From NCBI RefSeq assembly GCF_006517175.1, contig NZ_CP041186.1, positions 3,189,074 through 3,253,073 on the forward strand: a DNA stretch of 64,000 bases, given 5' to 3'. The DNA is from Persicimonas caeni (GTDB taxonomy: Bacteria; Myxococcota_A; Bradymonadia; Bradymonadales; Bradymonadaceae). Positions 54,872 through 62,982 of the stretch are shown piece by piece. Numbering within the stretch: the first letter of the stretch is position 1; every line of letters begins with the position of its first letter. The notes below the pieces were generated by a model that did no database searches, had not been told where the DNA came from, and was given only the letters and a program-made list of their open reading frames with translations. The position numbers and the translations under genes were made by a program.

Positions 54872-56728
54872 CTAATTCTGGAGCATTTCGAGTCGTTCAC
54901 ATGCCACGTCGTGTCCCCCGTCGCAACCCTTCTTGAAGTACTTGATGGCAACTTTTTGGCTCTGCGCGACCCCGTCGCCGGTCGCATACAGCGCTCCCAG
55001 GTAGCTGCAGCCTTGCGGATCTCCTTCCTCACACGCCTTTTTGTACTGCTCGGCCGCCTTCTTGGCGTCGGCGTCGACCCCCAGGCCCTCTTGGTGCAAG
55101 TAGCCCAGGTGTGTGCAACCGCGTGCTTGGCCCATCTCACACGCCTTCGCGTACAGCTTTCGCGCCCGATCGAGATCTTTGCCGACGCCCTGGCCTTCGC
55201 GATACATCGACGCGAGCCCCACACACGCGCTCGCCTGCCCGGCGTTGCAGGTATCCTGGTAGAGCAAGAAGGCGCGCACCTGCGCCTCGGGACTCGCCTC
55301 GTCCTCCGAGAGTTGCCGCCCGACGTTGAAGCACGCGTTGGACACACCTTTGTTGCACGCTTTGCGATACAGCCTCACCGCCTCTTTGGGCTTTCGTGGC
55401 ACGCCGTTTCCGGTGTGGTAGGCCCCGGCGAGGTTGTAGCAGCCGTTGCCGTCGCCCAACTGGCATGCCTTGCGGTACAGCTCGGCGGCCTTGCGCGGGT
55501 TGCGCCCCACCGCGCCGCCCTCCTCGTGGAGCACGCCGAGGGTGTTGCAGCCCTTGGCGTAGCCGGAGGCGCAAGCGACCTCGTAGAGCATCGCCGAGCG
55601 CACCGCGTCCTTCTTGGCGGCGTCGCCCTTCTCGTGGCGAAGCGCCAAGTTGAAGCACGCCTGAGCGTGGCCGCCCGAGCAGGCCTTCTCGTACAATTCG
55701 AGCGAGCGCTCGCGGTTCTTGGCGACCCCCTTTCCCTGCTCGTACAAATCACCCAGATGAGTGCATCCGACGGCGTACTCGTCGTCGCAGGCGCCTCTGT
55801 AGAGTTCGACGGCGCGCTCCAGGTCTTCTTTGACGCCCTCGCCCTTCTGGTTTAGCGCGCCAAACAACGTACACGCCTCCGGTTGGCCCGCTCCGTCGTT
55901 GTTGCATCCCTTTTCGTACACTTTGGCCGCGCGCGCCTGGTCGTGCACCACCATGAACCCCTTCTCGAAGCGCACACCCAGCATCACACAAGCCAGCGGA
56001 AAGCCCTCCTCGCAGCCCGTCTCGAGCACTCCGATCAGGTCGCCCTGGCCGCCCTGAGTGCGCACGTCGATGTCGTATCGCTCCGAAAGCGTCGCACAGG
56101 CATCGGCGCGACCGCCCTCGCAAGCGCGCAGGTAACTCGCCTTGGAAGCGGCCTCTTCGTCGCTTTTGTGCAGGATATCGCCCAGCCGGCGACACCCGTC
56201 GGGCTCGCCCAGGTTGCAGGCGCGGGCGTACATCTTCTGGGCCTGGTCGTCGCCGCGGCCCTGCACCAGCTTGCGCTCGTACATCAGCCCCAGCCCCACG
56301 CAACCCAGCGCCGCGCCGTGCGCACACGCCTCGTCGTAATACTCCCAGGCGCGGTACAGGCTCTTGTCGACCCCACGGCCGACCACGAACATCGAGCCGA
56401 GCATCGCGCACGCCACCGGGTGCTTCTCCACGCAGCCCATCGAGTAATACTCGGCGGCCTGCTTGGCGTCCTTGTGCATCCCGAAGCCATCCATCAACGC
56501 CTTGCCCAGCAAGGTACACGCCATCCCTTCGCCGTCATTACACGCGTCGACCAGGCTCGATAGGTCGAGCTCGGTGTCGATGCGCGTCTTCCAGGCGTCT
56601 TCGGGGATCTCGTCGGCGACTTGCTTCGTCGCCACCGGATCGTCGGAGACGGTCGCGTTTTTGGTGGCGCAGCCGGCTGCAAGGAGGGTGAGGAGGATCA
56701 GGAGGTGTGGGAAAGTACGTGCGTGCAT
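54872..56728 (-). CDS. Sel1-repeat lipoprotein
   Basis: 618 aa. Signal peptide with lipobox AAGC (Cys about 20). About 14 Sel1-like repeats of about 36 residues follow, each with the pattern A-X-L-Y-X-X-A-C-...-G-X-X-X-A-C-X-X-L-G-X-X-Y (for example AAELYRKACQLGDGNGCYNL and CEMGQARGCTHLGYLHQEGL). The regular Cys pairs suggest a disulfide-stapled alpha-alpha superhelix like the Hcp (Helicobacter cysteine-rich) proteins. Likely periplasmic, lipid-anchored, protein-binding. Twelve bases upstream of the NAGPA gene start; probably co-transcribed. Confidence 0.88.
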   Translation of the reverse strand: MHARTFPHLLILLTLLAAGCATKNATVSDDPVATKQVADEIPEDAWKTRIDTELDLSSLVDACNDGEGMACTLLGKALMDGFGMHKDAKQAAEYYSMGCVEKHPVACAMLGSMFVVGRGVDKSLYRAWEYYDEACAHGAALGCVGLGLMYERKLVQGRGDDQAQKMYARACNLGEPDGCRRLGDILHKSDEEAASKASYLRACEGGRADACATLSERYDIDVRTQGGQGDLIGVLETGCEEGFPLACVMLGVRFEKGFMVVHDQARAAKVYEKGCNNDGAGQPEACTLFGALNQKGEGVKEDLERAVELYRGACDDEYAVGCTHLGDLYEQGKGVAKNRERSLELYEKACSGGHAQACFNLALRHEKGDAAKKDAVRSAMLYEVACASGYAKGCNTLGVLHEEGGAVGRNPRKAAELYRKACQLGDGNGCYNLAGAYHTGNGVPRKPKEAVRLYRKACNKGVSNACFNVGRQLSEDEASPEAQVRAFLLYQDTCNAGQASACVGLASMYREGQGVGKDLDRARKLYAKACEMGQARGCTHLGYLHQEGLGVDADAKKAAEQYKKACEEGDPQGCSYLGALYATGDGVAQSQKVAIKYFKKGCDGGHDVACERLEMLQN

Positions 56729-57099: not shown

Positions 57100-57252
57100 A
57101 TGAAGTTCCCGCATCGCGTTGACCCGATGGGGAGGTGCCTGTTTTCGCGACAGGCAATGGTTAAACGACACGACCCCAGTTTTAATTCCAACCCGATCCG
57201 GTTTTTTTCAAATTTTTTTCGTTACAGCTTGAGACGCAAGCAGCAGTGGTGA
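57100..57252 (+). CDS. Candidate 50-aa basic small protein
   Basis: 50 aa: MKFPHRVDPMGRCLFSRQAM..., continuing with many Arg/Lys/Phe and a C-terminus RYSLRRKQQW. GGAGGAG is seven bases before the ATG, an unusually strong site for such a gap. Net positive and aromatic-rich. It overlaps the 3' end of the convergent diacylglycerol kinase gene by 31 bp. Could be a real small peptide, a leader peptide, or chance. Confidence 0.35.
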   Translation: MKFPHRVDPMGRCLFSRQAMVKRHDPSFNSNPIRFFSNFFRYSLRRKQQW

Positions 57253-58223
57253 TTGGTCCACAGAGCGGGCAGCTTGCCCGGCGCTTCGCCGTCGATGTCG
57301 AGCATGGCCACCCCTCCGTTGATCGAACGGGCCGCCACACGGCTGGCGCGGCGTCGGAAGATCTTTTTATTCTGCAAATGTCTGCCCTGGTAGATATCGA
57401 AGACCAGGCTGGCGATCTCACGGCGTTTGAGGTCGCCCATCAGCACGACCTGAAACTGGCCGTCGTCGAGCTCGGCGCCCGGCGCGATCCACATGCCGCC
57501 GCCGAAAAATTCGCCGTTGGCGACGACCACGTTGTTCATCTTGCCTTCGATCTCGACGGTGTCGTCGAGGCGAAGCTCCACGTCGATATTCTTGTAGCGC
57601 GCGAACGCCCGCGCCGTCGCCCACAGAAAGCTCGGCTTGGCGCCCAGGCCCTTCCAGCTCTTGTTGGCGATGCGGTCGACCGCCCCCGAGAAGCCGGCGC
57701 TGGCGATATTGACGAAGTAGCGCGTGGCGATCTCGCCCGAATCGTCGACAAAGCCGACCTCGCCGATGTCGATCTCACGCACGTGCTGGCCGCTGAGGTG
57801 CTCGATCGTCTCACTGTGGCCGCCCATCAGGCCGACCGTGCGCCGAAAATCTCCGCCGGTGCCCAGCGGAAGTACGCCGAGCACGGCTTCCGGGTTGATC
57901 GGCTCGGGAGCGCCGTCGCGCTTGCGCGTCATCCACCCGTCGTCGTCGATGGTGTAGAGGTCGTCGATGTCGGGCTTGTCGAAAAAGCCATTGACCACTT
58001 CGTTGAGCGTGCCGTCGCCGCCCACGGCGACGATCTGCTGCCACCCGGCCCGCAACGCCTCGCGTGCGAGGAGCGTGGCGTGGCCCGGCCCCTCGGTGAA
58101 GGCGTAGTCGATTTCGGGCAGCCGCGCGCGCAACAGGCGCTCCATGAGCCCCCACTCTTCTTCGACGGCGCCCGCTCCCGCCTTCGGATTGGCGATCACG
58201 AATGTTCTGAAGTTCAACGACAT
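57222..58223 (-). CDS. Diacylglycerol kinase family lipid kinase
   Basis: 333 aa. DagK/sphingosine-kinase catalytic domain: VIANPKAGAGAVEEEW (about 8-23), the Gly-rich nucleotide site AVGGDGTLNEVVNGFF (about 65-80), and PLGTGGDFRRTVGL (about 118). The C-terminal lobe has INIASAGFSGAVDR-type segments and NGEFFGGGMWIAPGAELDDG. It would phosphorylate diacylglycerol or another lipid alcohol. Start at 58223: the frame is open 95 codons upstream across the Fe-S protein gene. Ten bases after the stop of that gene, so in the operon. Confidence 0.88.
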   Translation of the reverse strand: MSLNFRTFVIANPKAGAGAVEEEWGLMERLLRARLPEIDYAFTEGPGHATLLAREALRAGWQQIVAVGGDGTLNEVVNGFFDKPDIDDLYTIDDDGWMTRKRDGAPEPINPEAVLGVLPLGTGGDFRRTVGLMGGHSETIEHLSGQHVREIDIGEVGFVDDSGEIATRYFVNIASAGFSGAVDRIANKSWKGLGAKPSFLWATARAFARYKNIDVELRLDDTVEIEGKMNNVVVANGEFFGGGMWIAPGAELDDGQFQVVLMGDLKRREIASLVFDIYQGRHLQNKKIFRRRASRVAARSINGGVAMLDIDGEAPGKLPALWTNHHCCLRLKL

Positions 58224-58233
58224 CGTCCACCCA

Positions 58234-59379
58234 TTACAATTCGAAAGCTCGACACACCAAATCCAACACATCGATCGCCACTTCATCTGCGCCGCCGGCC
58301 CGGCGGAACGCCTTGGTGCAGGTGGCCGAACCGCACACGATCGTGCTCGCCTCGTGCTCGCTCTCACGCTCCATCTGCTCGAGGCGGTCGGCCGCACACC
58401 GCTCGCTCGCCTCGGGGGCGACCAGGTGGTAGTGCGACGGCCCACCGCAGCACGGTGCGTCCGCGCGGTTGGTCGAAAACTCGTCGAGCGGCTTGCCGCA
58501 CAGCGCACTCAGCAGTGCGCGGGTCTCCTCGTACAGCTCCAGATGCCGCCCCACAAAGCACGAGTCGTGCAGCATCATCGCCTCGTCGCTCAGGTCGACG
58601 CGCGGCTCGAGCATGTCAACGCGCTCGGCCAGAAACTCGATCATGTGCACCACGTTCAGCGGGCTCTCCTGGCCGAAGCTCGTCCCCTCGCGGAACAAGG
58701 TGACCATCGCCGCGCAGTCGGTCACGATCATGTCGGCGTCCGACAGCATCGTCTCGAAATTGGTGCGGTACTCCTCGTAGGCCGCCCGGTTGCCCGTCGA
58801 CAGCAGCGGAAACCCGCAGCAGGCAAAGCCCTCGTCGTTGCGGCGAGTGTACAGGCGCACCTTCGTGCCGTGGAACATCTCGAGCAAAAGCCCGGTGCGC
58901 ACGATCGTCTCGGGCTCGTGATAGCGCACCTCGCAGTCGGGCATGTAGACCACCGAGGCGTCGTCGTCGAAGACCTCCTCGACCGTAAACCCATGGATAT
59001 CGGGGATCTGGGGAAGCTCCCCGTGCGGCGAGTTGTGCTTCAAGAAGGTCTCGTCGAGCCCCTCGAGCTCGTCGGGCAAATACCCGAGCTCGCGCATCCA
59101 TCCGCGCGCGGCCCACATCGCCTGGGGCACGTCGTTCTCGTGCAGACACCAATTCTGGCAGCGCAGGCACCCCATGCAGTGATAGAAGGTCTCGGCGACC
59201 TCCTCGGAGGGCTCGACCGCGCCGTCTTTGACCAGCTCGAACAGCCGCATCATGCCCCAGGGAGTCACCGTCTCGCGGTCCTCTGCCTCGGCGGCCGGAC
59301 ACGAAAAGCGGCACAGCTTCGGGCAATATGTGCAGTAGGCTGTCGCCCGATCGATTGGATCTCCAAAGCTCTTCTTCAT
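58234..59379 (-). CDS. Fe-S oxidoreductase subunit (CCG-domain, GlcF/GlpC-like)
   Basis: 381 aa. N-terminal Cys motifs CTYCPKLCRFSCP and CMGCLRCQNWC (about 15-28 and 68-78) for two [4Fe-4S] clusters. Two CCG-type segments follow: GFACCGFPLLSTGN (about 190) and DAPCCGGPSHYH (about 320). This is the electron-transfer subunit seen in glycolate, glycerol-3-phosphate and lactate oxidase complexes. ATG overlaps the upstream gene stop (ATGA). Expected to pass electrons from the flavoproteins encoded just upstream to the quinone pool. Confidence 0.88.
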   Translation of the reverse strand: MKKSFGDPIDRATAYCTYCPKLCRFSCPAAEAEDRETVTPWGMMRLFELVKDGAVEPSEEVAETFYHCMGCLRCQNWCLHENDVPQAMWAARGWMRELGYLPDELEGLDETFLKHNSPHGELPQIPDIHGFTVEEVFDDDASVVYMPDCEVRYHEPETIVRTGLLLEMFHGTKVRLYTRRNDEGFACCGFPLLSTGNRAAYEEYRTNFETMLSDADMIVTDCAAMVTLFREGTSFGQESPLNVVHMIEFLAERVDMLEPRVDLSDEAMMLHDSCFVGRHLELYEETRALLSALCGKPLDEFSTNRADAPCCGGPSHYHLVAPEASERCAADRLEQMERESEHEASTIVCGSATCTKAFRRAGGADEVAIDVLDLVCRAFEL

Positions 59380-60506
59380 GGTCCCACCGCCAACATGCGC
59401 CTGTCGTCGAACTCGCCTTTTAGCTTCTGCGCCCACTCCGGCCACGTCACGCTCGGCCCGCCGATAATCGGGCGCGCCTCGAGCGCCGTCTCGAACGCCT
59501 CCGGACTCCAGCCATCGTCGGGCACCTCGTCGAAGGTGACATAGGCTGTCGCCGCGTGGGTCGACCAGTCGACGATCTCGACCTCGCCGACCCCTTCGAG
59601 CGCGTCGATCGCCTCGCCGAGATGCGTCAAGCTGTAGGTCAGCGCCACCGTGCGGTCGGCCTCCTCGCGTGCGCGGCCGTCGGGCATCTCGGCGGCGAGC
59701 CGCCGACGAAGCTTTCGGACGGCCTCCCCATTGGCCGAGTCGAACGACTCGCCGTAGTGGGCGCGAAACCGATGCACCATCGCGTCCAGAAGCCGCGTCG
59801 GGGCGTGGACGACCGCCTGAAAACGTCCCTCGGAGCGCCGCCAGTGACACCACGCGCGGTGCACCCCGCGCTCGCCCAGCTCGCGCATCTTCTGTGCGGC
59901 GTCGGCCGCCGTGGCTGCCTCCCACTCGAACAGCCGCCCCGGAAACGGCTTCGACACGCTCAGCGTCACGTTCAAGATCACACCCAACGCCCCTTCGCCA
60001 CCGATGAACAGATGGCGCAGGTCGGGCCCGCTCGCCTTTCGAGGCGCCTCCAGATACCGGTAATCGCCCAGGGTCGGCGACACGGCCGACAGCGCCACGC
60101 AGCCCTCGCGGATATCGCCCGACAGCCGGTGCGGCTGGGTCGGATGACGCTTGGCCAAGAGGCCTCCGACAGTCGCGCTGTCCGCATACGGCCGGTAGGT
60201 CTGCAGTGAGTAGCCCTCTTCGCGCATCTTCTCGCGAAGCTCGCCCCAGCGAATCCCCGCCTCGACGCGCACCAGGTTGCTCTGACGGTCGAGCTTCAAG
60301 ATGTGGTTGCACCGCTCGGTGCGCACTGCCTCGAAGCCACGCTCGCCGATGACCTGCTCACGCAGATGCTGGCCGTCGCCGATCACCACCCGCGGCAGGT
60401 CCGCGTCGCCGCCGCGCCCGGCGATCAGGTGCTCGAGCTCGACGACGTCTTCGGGGAAATGCTCGGCCTGTGGCTCCGGCAGCTTTCTCTCTTCGTAGAA
60501 GCTCAT
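59376..60506 (-). CDS. FAD-binding oxidoreductase subunit (GlcE-like)
   Basis: 376 aa. FAD-binding type-4 (PCMH) domain: LDRQSNLVRVEAGIRWGELR (about 75-95), then TVGGLLAKRHPTQ and HLFIGGEGALGVILNVTL (about 165-180). Shorter than the first flavoprotein of the operon and lacking its His-rich C-terminus, as GlcE is relative to GlcD. The ATG overlaps the stop of the AGPS-like gene. Probably forms a complex with both neighbours. Confidence 0.82.
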   Translation of the reverse strand: MSFYEERKLPEPQAEHFPEDVVELEHLIAGRGGDADLPRVVIGDGQHLREQVIGERGFEAVRTERCNHILKLDRQSNLVRVEAGIRWGELREKMREEGYSLQTYRPYADSATVGGLLAKRHPTQPHRLSGDIREGCVALSAVSPTLGDYRYLEAPRKASGPDLRHLFIGGEGALGVILNVTLSVSKPFPGRLFEWEAATAADAAQKMRELGERGVHRAWCHWRRSEGRFQAVVHAPTRLLDAMVHRFRAHYGESFDSANGEAVRKLRRRLAAEMPDGRAREEADRTVALTYSLTHLGEAIDALEGVGEVEIVDWSTHAATAYVTFDEVPDDGWSPEAFETALEARPIIGGPSVTWPEWAQKLKGEFDDRRMLAVGP

Positions 60507-62131
60507 AGGTACACCTTCCCGGGGTTCATGATCCCGTCGGGATCGAACGCAGCCTTCAGCGCGTCGAACGCTTGGCGGCCGCCGCGATGATCGTGGTGCG
60601 ACCACGGCGCCTTCGACTCGCCCACGCCGTGGTGGTGCGCGACGCTCGCCCCGACGCTGGCCACGGCATCGAGCCCGGCCTTCCAGGTCGCGTCGTAGCG
60701 CTCGAGCGTCTCGTCCATGTCGGCGCCGAACCCCGAGAACGTAAAGTAGATGGAGCTGCCGTACGGGTAGACGTGGCTAAAGTGAGCCATCACCAGCACG
60801 TGCGGGGCCAGCGCCTCGCGCACGGTGTGGTACAGCTCGAGCACCTTCGACCAGCTCGTCGACACCTCCATCGTGTCGACGAACGCGCCGGCGTCGTACA
60901 TCGGCGACTGCTTGTAGGAGACGTTGTAGCGGTTCTCCAGCCAGTGCAGCCCGGGGCCCGGCCCCAGGTCGAGCCCGTAGCGGCCGAGCAGGTCGAAGGC
61001 GTATTGCGCCTCGTCCTCGACCAGCGGGCTCGAGCCCTCGAAGCCCACCACGAGCAAGCACTCTTTGGGCAAGACGTTCGTCAGCGAGTTGAGCGCCAGC
61101 GGGTTTCCGAGCACGCGGCCGACCACCGCGTGGGTCGCCTTGCGCACCTGCTCGCGCACCTTCGAGGTCACCGCGTCGGGCACCTTGTCGAAGGCGAGTT
61201 TGCGCAGGTTGCGAAGCAGCCCCGGCGGCACGTCCGACGAGCCCTTCTCGGCGTCGCTCGACTTGTGCAGCAGGGTATCGAGCGCGTCGTAAAGGCGCAC
61301 CACGGCCGGGCGAAGGCCCGCCTGCATCATGTCGCGAATGGCGTCGAGCGCGGTCTCGACGTCGGGAAACTTGAAGCCGCGATAGAACCGGTGGTTCGGC
61401 TTGCGGGCCATGTTGAAGGTCGCCTCGGTGAGCACCCCGAGGGTGCCCTCGCTGCCCACGAAGAGCTGGGTCAGGTCGGGGCCGGCCTGCGAGGCCATCT
61501 GCCGCGGCCTGTCGGCCAGCGGGTCGGCGGCGGTGTCGAGCACCTCGCCTGTGCCGGTAACCACTCGCAGCGACGCGACCATGTCCTCGATCTTGCCGTA
61601 CAGGCTCGAAAACTGGCCGGCCCCACGCGCGGCGACCCAGCCGCCGATGCTCGAGCAATAAATCGATGAGGGAAAGTGGCCCAGCGTGAACCCGCGTCGC
61701 TGCAGCTCCTCTTCGAAGGGCATGCCGATCGCGCCGGCCTGCACGCGCACGGTCATGTCGTCGGCGCGCGTCTCCACGATGCGGTCCATGCGCTTGACGT
61801 CGACGACGACCTTCGTCTCGTCGGCGAGCACGCCGCCGCACACCCCACTGCCGGCGCCAAAGGGCACCAGGGGCGTGCCCGTCTTGCGCGCCCAACGCAC
61901 CAAGCCTGTGACTTCGGATTCGTTGGCCGGCTGGACGATCGCCGCCGGACAGTGATGGTCGAGGTCGCGCCCGCGGGTGCGGATGATCCCGCGCGGCCAG
62001 CAGTCGACCTGGTAGGCGAGCCGGTCGGGCTTGCTGACCAACACCCGCTCGCGGCCGACGATGTCGGCCAGGTCGTCGACCATCGTTTTGGGAGGCTTCT
62101 TCACGGCGTCTTGTCGTGTCGTTGTTGTCAT
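60503..62131 (-). CDS. AGPS-like FAD enzyme (alkyl-DHAP synthase / GlcD family)
   Basis: 542 aa. FAD-binding type-4 domain: PFGAGSGVCGGVLADE (about 93), HFPSSIYCSSIGGWVAARGAG (about 155-175) and LFVGSEGTLGVLTEATF (about 225-240). The C-terminal domain carries SVAHHHGVGESKAPW (about 505), the His-rich motif of alkyldihydroxyacetonephosphate synthase, which exchanges the acyl of acyl-DHAP for an alkyl chain in ether-lipid synthesis. It ends AAFDPDGIMNPGKVYL like GlcD/AGPS proteins. Coupled to GlcE-like, GlcF-like and DagK genes by overlaps or close spacing. Either a GlcDEF-type oxidase using the His motif, or an ether-lipid enzyme with redox partners. Confidence 0.88.
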   Translation of the reverse strand: MTTTTRQDAVKKPPKTMVDDLADIVGRERVLVSKPDRLAYQVDCWPRGIIRTRGRDLDHHCPAAIVQPANESEVTGLVRWARKTGTPLVPFGAGSGVCGGVLADETKVVVDVKRMDRIVETRADDMTVRVQAGAIGMPFEEELQRRGFTLGHFPSSIYCSSIGGWVAARGAGQFSSLYGKIEDMVASLRVVTGTGEVLDTAADPLADRPRQMASQAGPDLTQLFVGSEGTLGVLTEATFNMARKPNHRFYRGFKFPDVETALDAIRDMMQAGLRPAVVRLYDALDTLLHKSSDAEKGSSDVPPGLLRNLRKLAFDKVPDAVTSKVREQVRKATHAVVGRVLGNPLALNSLTNVLPKECLLVVGFEGSSPLVEDEAQYAFDLLGRYGLDLGPGPGLHWLENRYNVSYKQSPMYDAGAFVDTMEVSTSWSKVLELYHTVREALAPHVLVMAHFSHVYPYGSSIYFTFSGFGADMDETLERYDATWKAGLDAVASVGASVAHHHGVGESKAPWSHHDHRGGRQAFDALKAAFDPDGIMNPGKVYL

Positions 62132-62328: not shown

Positions 62329-62982
62329 TCATTCTTCATCGAACCGCCCGTATACGTTCGGCAACACCCACCGATCGAGCACTTCCTGCAAGAGCGCCTC
62401 GAGCCCACGCACAAAGCCTTCGAGCTTCTCTACACTAAGCTCGGGAGCGCCCTCCTCAAGTCCCCACTCGACGAGCCGTCCGATGAGCGCGTTCATCTTG
62501 GCCTCGACCACCCGGCCGAAGCGGGCCACCACGGCGCGGGCTTCTTCGTCCTGGGCGGTCTCGCGCACCAGGTTGTCGAGGTTGTCGACGCCGAAAAAGA
62601 GCGCGCTCGCCTCGGGAAACGCGTCGACCAGCTCGTCGAATTGCTCGCGAAACTCGGCGACGATCTCCTCGTCGAAGAACGCTTCCTCGCCGGGAGCCGC
62701 GACCAACTGGCGCGCCCGCCAGCCGAACTTCGCCGCGGTCGTGCCGAGGCTTTTGAGCGCGCCCAAAAGCGGCAGCCAAGTGGCCACGAAACCGACGATC
62801 TCGTCGCGGCTCGCCACCACCTGCTTGAGCACGGCGAGCATGCGCACGAAGCTCGTCTGCACGTCTTCCTCAGCCGGGTCGACGGGGGCCGGGCCGACGG
62901 GGGCCGATTCGGCGTCGCCGAGTTCCTCGATGGAGCGCTCGTCATCGGAAGATGCGGGTTGTTCTCGGTCCTCGGGCGGCAT
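62329..62982 (-). CDS. Acidic soluble protein, unknown
   Basis: 217 aa, predicted mostly helical; acidic Pro-rich N-terminus (about 40 residues), then helices such as SFVRMLAVLKQVVASRDEIV and FREQFDELVDAFPEASALFF, ending RWVLPNVYGRFDEE. No signal peptide or clear membrane helix, though one moderately hydrophobic stretch (GFVATWLPLLGALKSLG) exists. No family recognised. GAGG lies six bases upstream of the ATG at 62982. Confidence 0.65.
   Translation of the reverse strand: MPPEDREQPASSDDERSIEELGDAESAPVGPAPVDPAEEDVQTSFVRMLAVLKQVVASRDEIVGFVATWLPLLGALKSLGTTAAKFGWRARQLVAAPGEEAFFDEEIVAEFREQFDELVDAFPEASALFFGVDNLDNLVRETAQDEEARAVVARFGRVVEAKMNALIGRLVEWGLEEGAPELSVEKLEGFVRGLEALLQEVLDRWVLPNVYGRFDEE

Follow-up and report, generated by a model that had tools for sequence, protein, structure and literature searches.

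Alkyl-dihydroxyacetone phosphate (alkyl-DHAP) synthase, AGPS, is a classic example of a flavoenzyme whose FAD undergoes no net redox change. In GlcDEF, a catalytic FAD subunit is followed by an FAD-fold subunit and an iron-sulfur (Fe-S) subunit with a CCG domain, and in the LctBCD-type Ldh-EtfAB (7qh2), a flavin dehydrogenase of the same superfamily, on the lactate side, is paired with a separate electron carrier, an electron-transferring flavoprotein (ETF). Moreover, we take Rv2251 of Mycobacterium tuberculosis to be AGPS-like. The gene row around it, in the available part of its description, reads glpD1, a regulator, the Rv2251 flavoprotein and the Rv2252 diacylglycerol kinase (PMC4564863). 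The window analyzed here, i.e., the whole stretch of 64,000 nucleotides at positions 3,189,074 to 3,253,073 of contig NZ_CP041186.1, comes from the 8.05 Mb, single-contig genome of Persicimonas caeni (Bradymonadia, Myxococcota) and contains four consecutive minus-strand open reading frames (ORFs), P1 to P4, within 57222-62131. Judged by its sequence, P1 is a member of a sister clade of AGPS with conserved redox partners (P2 and P3), and its function is unproven. Our tentative preference, held at just short of an even chance, is that P1-P3 form a flavin/Fe-S oxidoreductase which would act on a glycerolipid intermediate and be linked to quinone, with the lipid kinase P4 acting on lipids of the same pool.

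The placement of P1 was based on database matches, a predicted structure and phylogeny, all of which bear out the AGPS resemblance claimed in the sequence-only reading. P1 has FAD_binding_4 and FAD-oxidase_C in an AGPS fold, and a phmmer search against the PDB gave Dictyostelium AGPS (2uuu) as the best match (E 1e-63), with mammalian AGPS at 3e-46 and D-lactate dehydrogenase (D-LDH) at 8e-32. When the predicted model (mean pLDDT 79.6) was run in Foldseek, 37 AGPS chains preceded the first D-LDH chain. In VIA-align, the scores were nearly equal and slightly higher for mammalian D-LDH (Z 36.4) than for AGPS (Z 34.3), so the backbone alone cannot decide between the two. Trees of 68 and 43 rows both split the GlcD/D-LDH rows from the AGPS-side rows at 100/100 and, within the latter, P1 forms a separate clade (99/94). 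In the unrooted tree, the P1 branch lies between GlcD and the AGPS-like clan, with a short branch to the AGPS-like clan and a long one to GlcD, and the grouping of P1 with canonical AGPS (eukaryotic and myxobacterial) alone was rejected (p-AU 0.002). Against the GlcD equivalog model, P1 reached 169.6 bits (cut-off 567.9), and the NCBIfam GlcD models in general scored far below their cut-offs. In a pattern-limited scan with a bearing on occurrence outside Myxococcota, P1-clade rows were clearly recovered only as L004-L012.

The active-site positions are given in guinea-pig AGPS numbering; we take Arg515 to be a substrate-binding residue and the His615-617 triad to be catalytic. Two of the AGPS structures in the Foldseek listing are mutants, 4bc7 (Arg419His) and 4bca (Tyr578Phe). 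P1 of the window keeps Arg279, Tyr462 and His499-501 at the positions of Arg419, Tyr578 and His615-617, and the HHHGVG motif attributed to it is present, reading AHHHGVG. By contrast, Asp303 is replaced by Ser155 and Arg515 by Gln408. These replacements hold for the clade: among 39 P1-clade rows, position 303 is Ser in 37 and Ala in two, and position 515 is Gln in 31, Met in three, Leu in two, His in two and Arg in a single row (L010), which is gapped and otherwise degenerate. The same rows have Arg419 in 36 cases (His in the other three), Tyr578 in 36 and the triad in all 39. Similarly, 40 further P1 loci, one per genome, gave Ser303 in 40, Arg515 in none, Arg419 in 39, and Tyr578 and the triad in all 40. 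Arg515 is found in 15/15 other bacterial AGPS-like rows, a set that was picked after the residues had been seen and that left out four rows lacking it (L002, L026, L027 and L029). P1 shares with AGPS of the Myxococcus MXAN_1676 type the fold, the FAD domain, Arg419, Tyr578, the three histidines and the top Foldseek family, but differs in residues 303 and 515 and in its clade.

These residues also bear on the idea that P1-P3 oxidize 2-hydroxy acids in respiration, as a GlcDEF- or D-lactate-type dehydrogenase whose AGPS likeness is incidental. The GlcDEF-like subunit set and the slightly higher D-LDH score of the model speak for it. However, all 53 GlcD-type rows carry Glu419, His578 and Glu616, none of the 39 P1 rows has any of the three letters (position 616 being His instead of Glu), and P1 lacks the GDGNxH and EHG motifs of GlcDEF. 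Together with the 100/100 split and the low GlcD model scores, this makes such a dehydrogenase highly improbable, and a GlcD or D-lactate identity of P1 itself is ruled out by residues and trees. Clear clustering with GlcD, named beforehand in the sequence-only reading as its refutation, did not occur.

The GlcE/GlcF-like character proposed for P2 and P3 holds for the architecture, with the order of subunits shared with GlcDEF, and is loose in sequence. P2 has no significant match to E. coli GlcE (BLAST E 0.06) and its nearest solved relative is AGPS, while P3 matches GlcF at 1e-4 in the N-terminal cluster domain only and is, by family model, closer to TfrB, LdhH and DsrK. P3 has two CxxC-type 4Fe-4S motifs, with eight cysteines kept in 12/12 aligned rows. 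The kinase expected after the redox genes was found: P4 combines DAGK_cat and YegS_C, as in the YegS/Rv2252/BmrU family, and scores 112.7 bits with TIGR00147, just below the cut-off of 118.65.

The unit recurs across the phylum. In 14 of 39 loci, within the class of the window and beyond, P1-P2-P3-P4 were gene-called in the same order and orientation; this 39-locus set counts one contig twice (L005 and L122) and includes loci outside the P1 clade as well as low-GC loci with failed gene calling. Open frames at the loci of relatives match the P1-P4 order. At E 1e-60, a 17-row P1 profile found matches in 238 of 378 Myxococcota genomes, about 181 of them (hand count) at 1e-95 or better; the weaker matches are probably mostly other AGPS-like proteins. 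Of 40 loci sampled from the profile matches, 31 have a P2-like gene or domain after P1, 23 have P3, 38 have P2 or P3, and 13 have P4. Because it recurs across the phylum, the arrangement is not a matter of chance. In addition, P1 and P2 are fused at full length in nine of the 23 loci examined (L101, L217, L250, L251, L253, L254, L255, L259 and L264), others of this set having P1 with a P2 remnant only, and in some families P3 is reduced to a small CxxCxxCxxxC protein with no Pfam match (e.g., L212). The model of a P1-P2 fusion (mean pLDDT 68.6, with positions 796-889 below 50) is too weak for a claim about the P1/P2 interface; a first fusion alignment, in which short P2 rows had probably matched the wrong half, was not used for folding. 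As for absences, those from genome profile searches are weak, since a PF02754 search of the host genome missed P3 although hmmscan matches it. At three loci of a family of large genomes (f13: L199, L201 and L203), a fusion of P1 with a P2 remnant was seen and no P3; directly upstream in L199 lies a gene for a methyltransferase-domain protein.

Canonical AGPS was found in 38 of the 378 Myxococcota genomes, and in the host genome none was detected at E 1e-100. The canonical myxobacterial proteins of L243 and L247 are identical to the guinea-pig enzyme at Asp303, Thr309, Arg419, Arg515, Tyr578 and the triad, and they are encoded in an operon of AGPS, a NAD_binding_4-acyltransferase fusion (FAR-GNPAT) and an SDR. 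In the part of the source available, the MXAN_1676-1674 operon of M. xanthus has this same arrangement, disruption of MXAN_1676 affects ether lipids only slightly, and GNPAT and AGPS are described as acting as a complex (PMC9131029); on this last point, the earlier remark, in which the eukaryotic synthase works by itself, is slightly inaccurate. The P1 operon differs in having no FAR-GNPAT or SDR, and at none of the loci read was a FAR or GNPAT gene seen next to P1. P1 (at 1e-95 or better) and canonical AGPS occur together in nine of the 38 genomes (G032, G217, G259, G293, G300, G320, G337, G380 and G387). P1 is therefore not just a differently named canonical AGPS, nor does it strictly take the place of that enzyme, and the idea of a simple replacement is weakened.

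It is nevertheless conceivable that P1 is a functional, redox-neutral bacterial alkyl-DHAP synthase, with P2 and P3 in a structural or redox-protective role and P4 feeding phosphatidate synthesis. This would agree with AGPS ranking first among solved relatives and among Foldseek families, with the retained Tyr578, Arg419 and triad, and with a host genome that has both a cluster of elb type and a gene of the CarF family (see below) and no canonical AGPS at the above threshold. We consider it unlikely, given the clade-wide loss of Arg515 and Asp303 (Arg515 being kept by canonical AGPS and the 15-row set), the rejected grouping with canonical AGPS, the coexistence of both in nine genomes, and the lack of FAR or GNPAT neighbors in the loci read. 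Of the two functions offered in the sequence-only reading, an oxidoreductase acting on a lipid precursor thus suits the data better than synthesis of ether lipids with redox helpers, because Arg515 and Asp303 are lost in the P1 clade, canonical AGPS of this phylum has an operon of its own, and P1 is also present in 9 of the 38 genomes with canonical AGPS.

In the preferred oxidoreductase, P1-P3 would make up one cytosolic or membrane-peripheral complex of GlcDEF-like build, with a catalytic subunit derived from the alkyl-DHAP synthase side. Besides FAD, P1 would bind a lipid intermediate of the glycerol type (an acyl- or alkyl-glycerol, a glycerone, or a phosphate of one of these). Since Tyr and His are retained, it is presumably still a glycerol or glycerone carbon of the substrate that faces N5 of the FAD, and since Arg515 is lost, the handling of this substrate is expected to be unlike that of acyl-DHAP in AGPS. 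With Tyr462 and the triad but no AGPS substrate arginine, P1 may use FAD as the acceptor or donor of a hydride rather than replace acyl by alkyl. The conservation of P2 and P3 beside P1 suggests that electrons enter or leave the P1 flavin; P2, a non-catalytic FAD-fold protein, could carry them together with P3 (two 4Fe-4S clusters, CCG), most likely to or from quinone. P4 would then phosphorylate the substrate or the product of the same lipid pool. Running the chemistry the other way, quinol or ferredoxin electrons might reduce acyl- or alkyl-DHAP through P1-P3, in place of the NADPH-dependent alkyl-DHAP reductase of ether-lipid synthesis. The same gene data fit such a reductase, and the Fe-S subunit resembles TfrB/GlpC-type carriers, but the elb-like cluster of the host has an SDR that could do that step with NAD(P)H, and in the genomes of one P1-bearing family (f4) no ElbD-sized frame was seen among the matches listed. 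We regard it as improbable.

A parallel that supports the redox reading of P1 comes from two AGPS-side proteins without Arg515, from Clostridiales and Actinomycetota metagenome-assembled genomes (L027:5889-8970 and L029:9305-10213), which are encoded near genes for a different electron carrier, ETF; the Ldh-EtfAB system mentioned above likewise differs from P1-P3 in having ETF, not an Fe-S/CCG protein, as its carrier. A wider claim is less likely than not to hold: there may exist in Myxococcota a respiratory (or quinol-driven) oxidoreductase of glycerolipids that has so far gone undescribed. Its AGPS-type active site would have left redox-neutral ether synthesis for electron transfer via an attached Fe-S relay, a change marked by the loss of Arg515 that would have happened at least two times (with an Fe-S partner in Myxococcota and an ETF partner in the L027/L029 lineage).

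Several observations weigh against an oxidoreductase. The first FAD loop of P2 is degenerate. In family f13, P3 was not found and P2 is a remnant fused to P1, so the enzyme is apparently able to work without P3, and at two further loci (L208 and L214) neither P2 nor P3 was seen. The Archangium/Myxococcus-type P1 proteins of L010, L011 and L012 have lost both Tyr578 and Arg419 and are still encoded in the four-gene unit, which possibly reflects a further change of function or decay. A rule in which loss of Arg515 means gain of a redox partner is not clean, as Arg515 is replaced by Gln in proteins of the L002/L245 type and by Glu in L026, and no electron carrier was seen near either, while L244 keeps the arginine beside a small CxxCxxC protein. 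Finally, we know of no activity for any member of the P1 clade, and the lipid substrate is suggested by ancestry and neighboring genes only.

The operon itself, as claimed from the sequence, was confirmed in place, with four same-strand ORFs, their domains and the overlaps (Table 1). P3 and P4 are separated by 10 bases. For P4, the ATG at 58223 fits as the start, and the GTG at 58508 in the ORF list makes the protein too long.

Table 1. Features of the P1-P4 locus in window coordinates
Feature	Position	Strand	Remarks
P1, AGPS-sister flavoprotein, presumed catalytic subunit	60503..62131	-	542 aa; FAD_binding_4 + FAD-oxidase_C (Pfam)
P2, FAD_binding_4-fold protein without catalytic C-terminal domain	59376..60506	-	376 aa; FAD_binding_4 only (Pfam)
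P3, Fe-S protein with CCG domain	58234..59379	-	381 aa; Fer4_8 + CCG (Pfam)
P4, YegS/Rv2252/BmrU-type lipid kinase	57222..58223	-	333 aa; DAGK_cat + YegS_C (Pfam)
P1 stop/P2 start, 4-base ATGA overlap	60503..60506	-	suggests translational coupling
P2 stop/P3 start, 4-base ATGA overlap	59376..59379	-	suggests translational coupling
P0, upstream ORF, no family assigned	62329..62982	-	217 aa; precedes P1 in some loci of the same genome family; uncertain member of the unit

Lipid-related genes are found both around P1-P4 and elsewhere in the host genome. In 8 of 30 distinct loci with P4, the gene adjoining it encodes an apolipoprotein N-acyltransferase (Lnt; TIGR00546, above cut-off), and in Archangium/Myxococcus-type loci a YbgC-type thioesterase follows, below the family cut-off. 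The AGPS-like/lipid kinase/GlpD set of L246 and the Rv2251-Rv2252 pair both have an AGPS-like flavoprotein beside a YegS-type or diacylglycerol kinase, as do P1 and P4; L246 differs in keeping Arg515 and in having no P2 or P3 seen beside it, and Rv2251 is included as a presumed AGPS-like protein. Other AGPS-like proteins with Arg515 are encoded near GlpD and FGGY-kinase genes. The elb-like cluster of the host (L151:5462-13928, minus strand) encodes a HAD protein, a Lar_N protein, a 1611-aa ElbD-like protein (NAD_binding_4, AMP-binding, carrier, acyltransferase and SCP2 domains) and an SDR. The host also has a Lipid_desat gene (PF10520; CarF/TMEM189/PEDS1 family) at L152:7476-8231 on the plus strand. 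PF10520, which we assume to be broader than CarF, is present in 25 of 76 genomes searched. Within myxobacteria, true CarF is limited to Cystobacterineae, according to the available part of PMC9131029. A tie between P1 and CarF was not supported, since three P1 genomes of one family (G003, G012 and G015) gave no PF10520 match and some genomes with such a match gave none to P1.

None of the literature matches listed links alkyl-DHAP synthase to GlcE/GlcF or to the combination of a kinase and an Fe-S protein, and no mechanism paper on Arg515 of AGPS was found. If the proposed reading is true, a phylum-wide sister clade with an altered site and electron carriers would be a natural comparison for how flavin sites switch chemistry. 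It also calls for caution, as a bacterial AGPS homologue need not mean ether-lipid capacity: metagenome screens for agps take homologues as such capacity, with a limit of 30% identity in the part of the source available (PMC11868695), and at this limit 6 of 41 P1 rows pass against two myxobacterial AGPS stand-ins.

A second AGPS-like protein of the host genome (L116:8942-10555, minus strand) is of the L002 type, with Gln303, Gln515 and HHHAVG. Its neighbors encode an EgtD-type methyltransferase, a Svf1-like lipocalin protein and an IS701 transposase, and L245 is a relative. Downstream of P4, the ORF at 54872-56728 on the minus strand looks by eye like a Sel1-type repeat lipoprotein; L119 has a gene of similar appearance after P4, and Lnt occupies that place in other loci.

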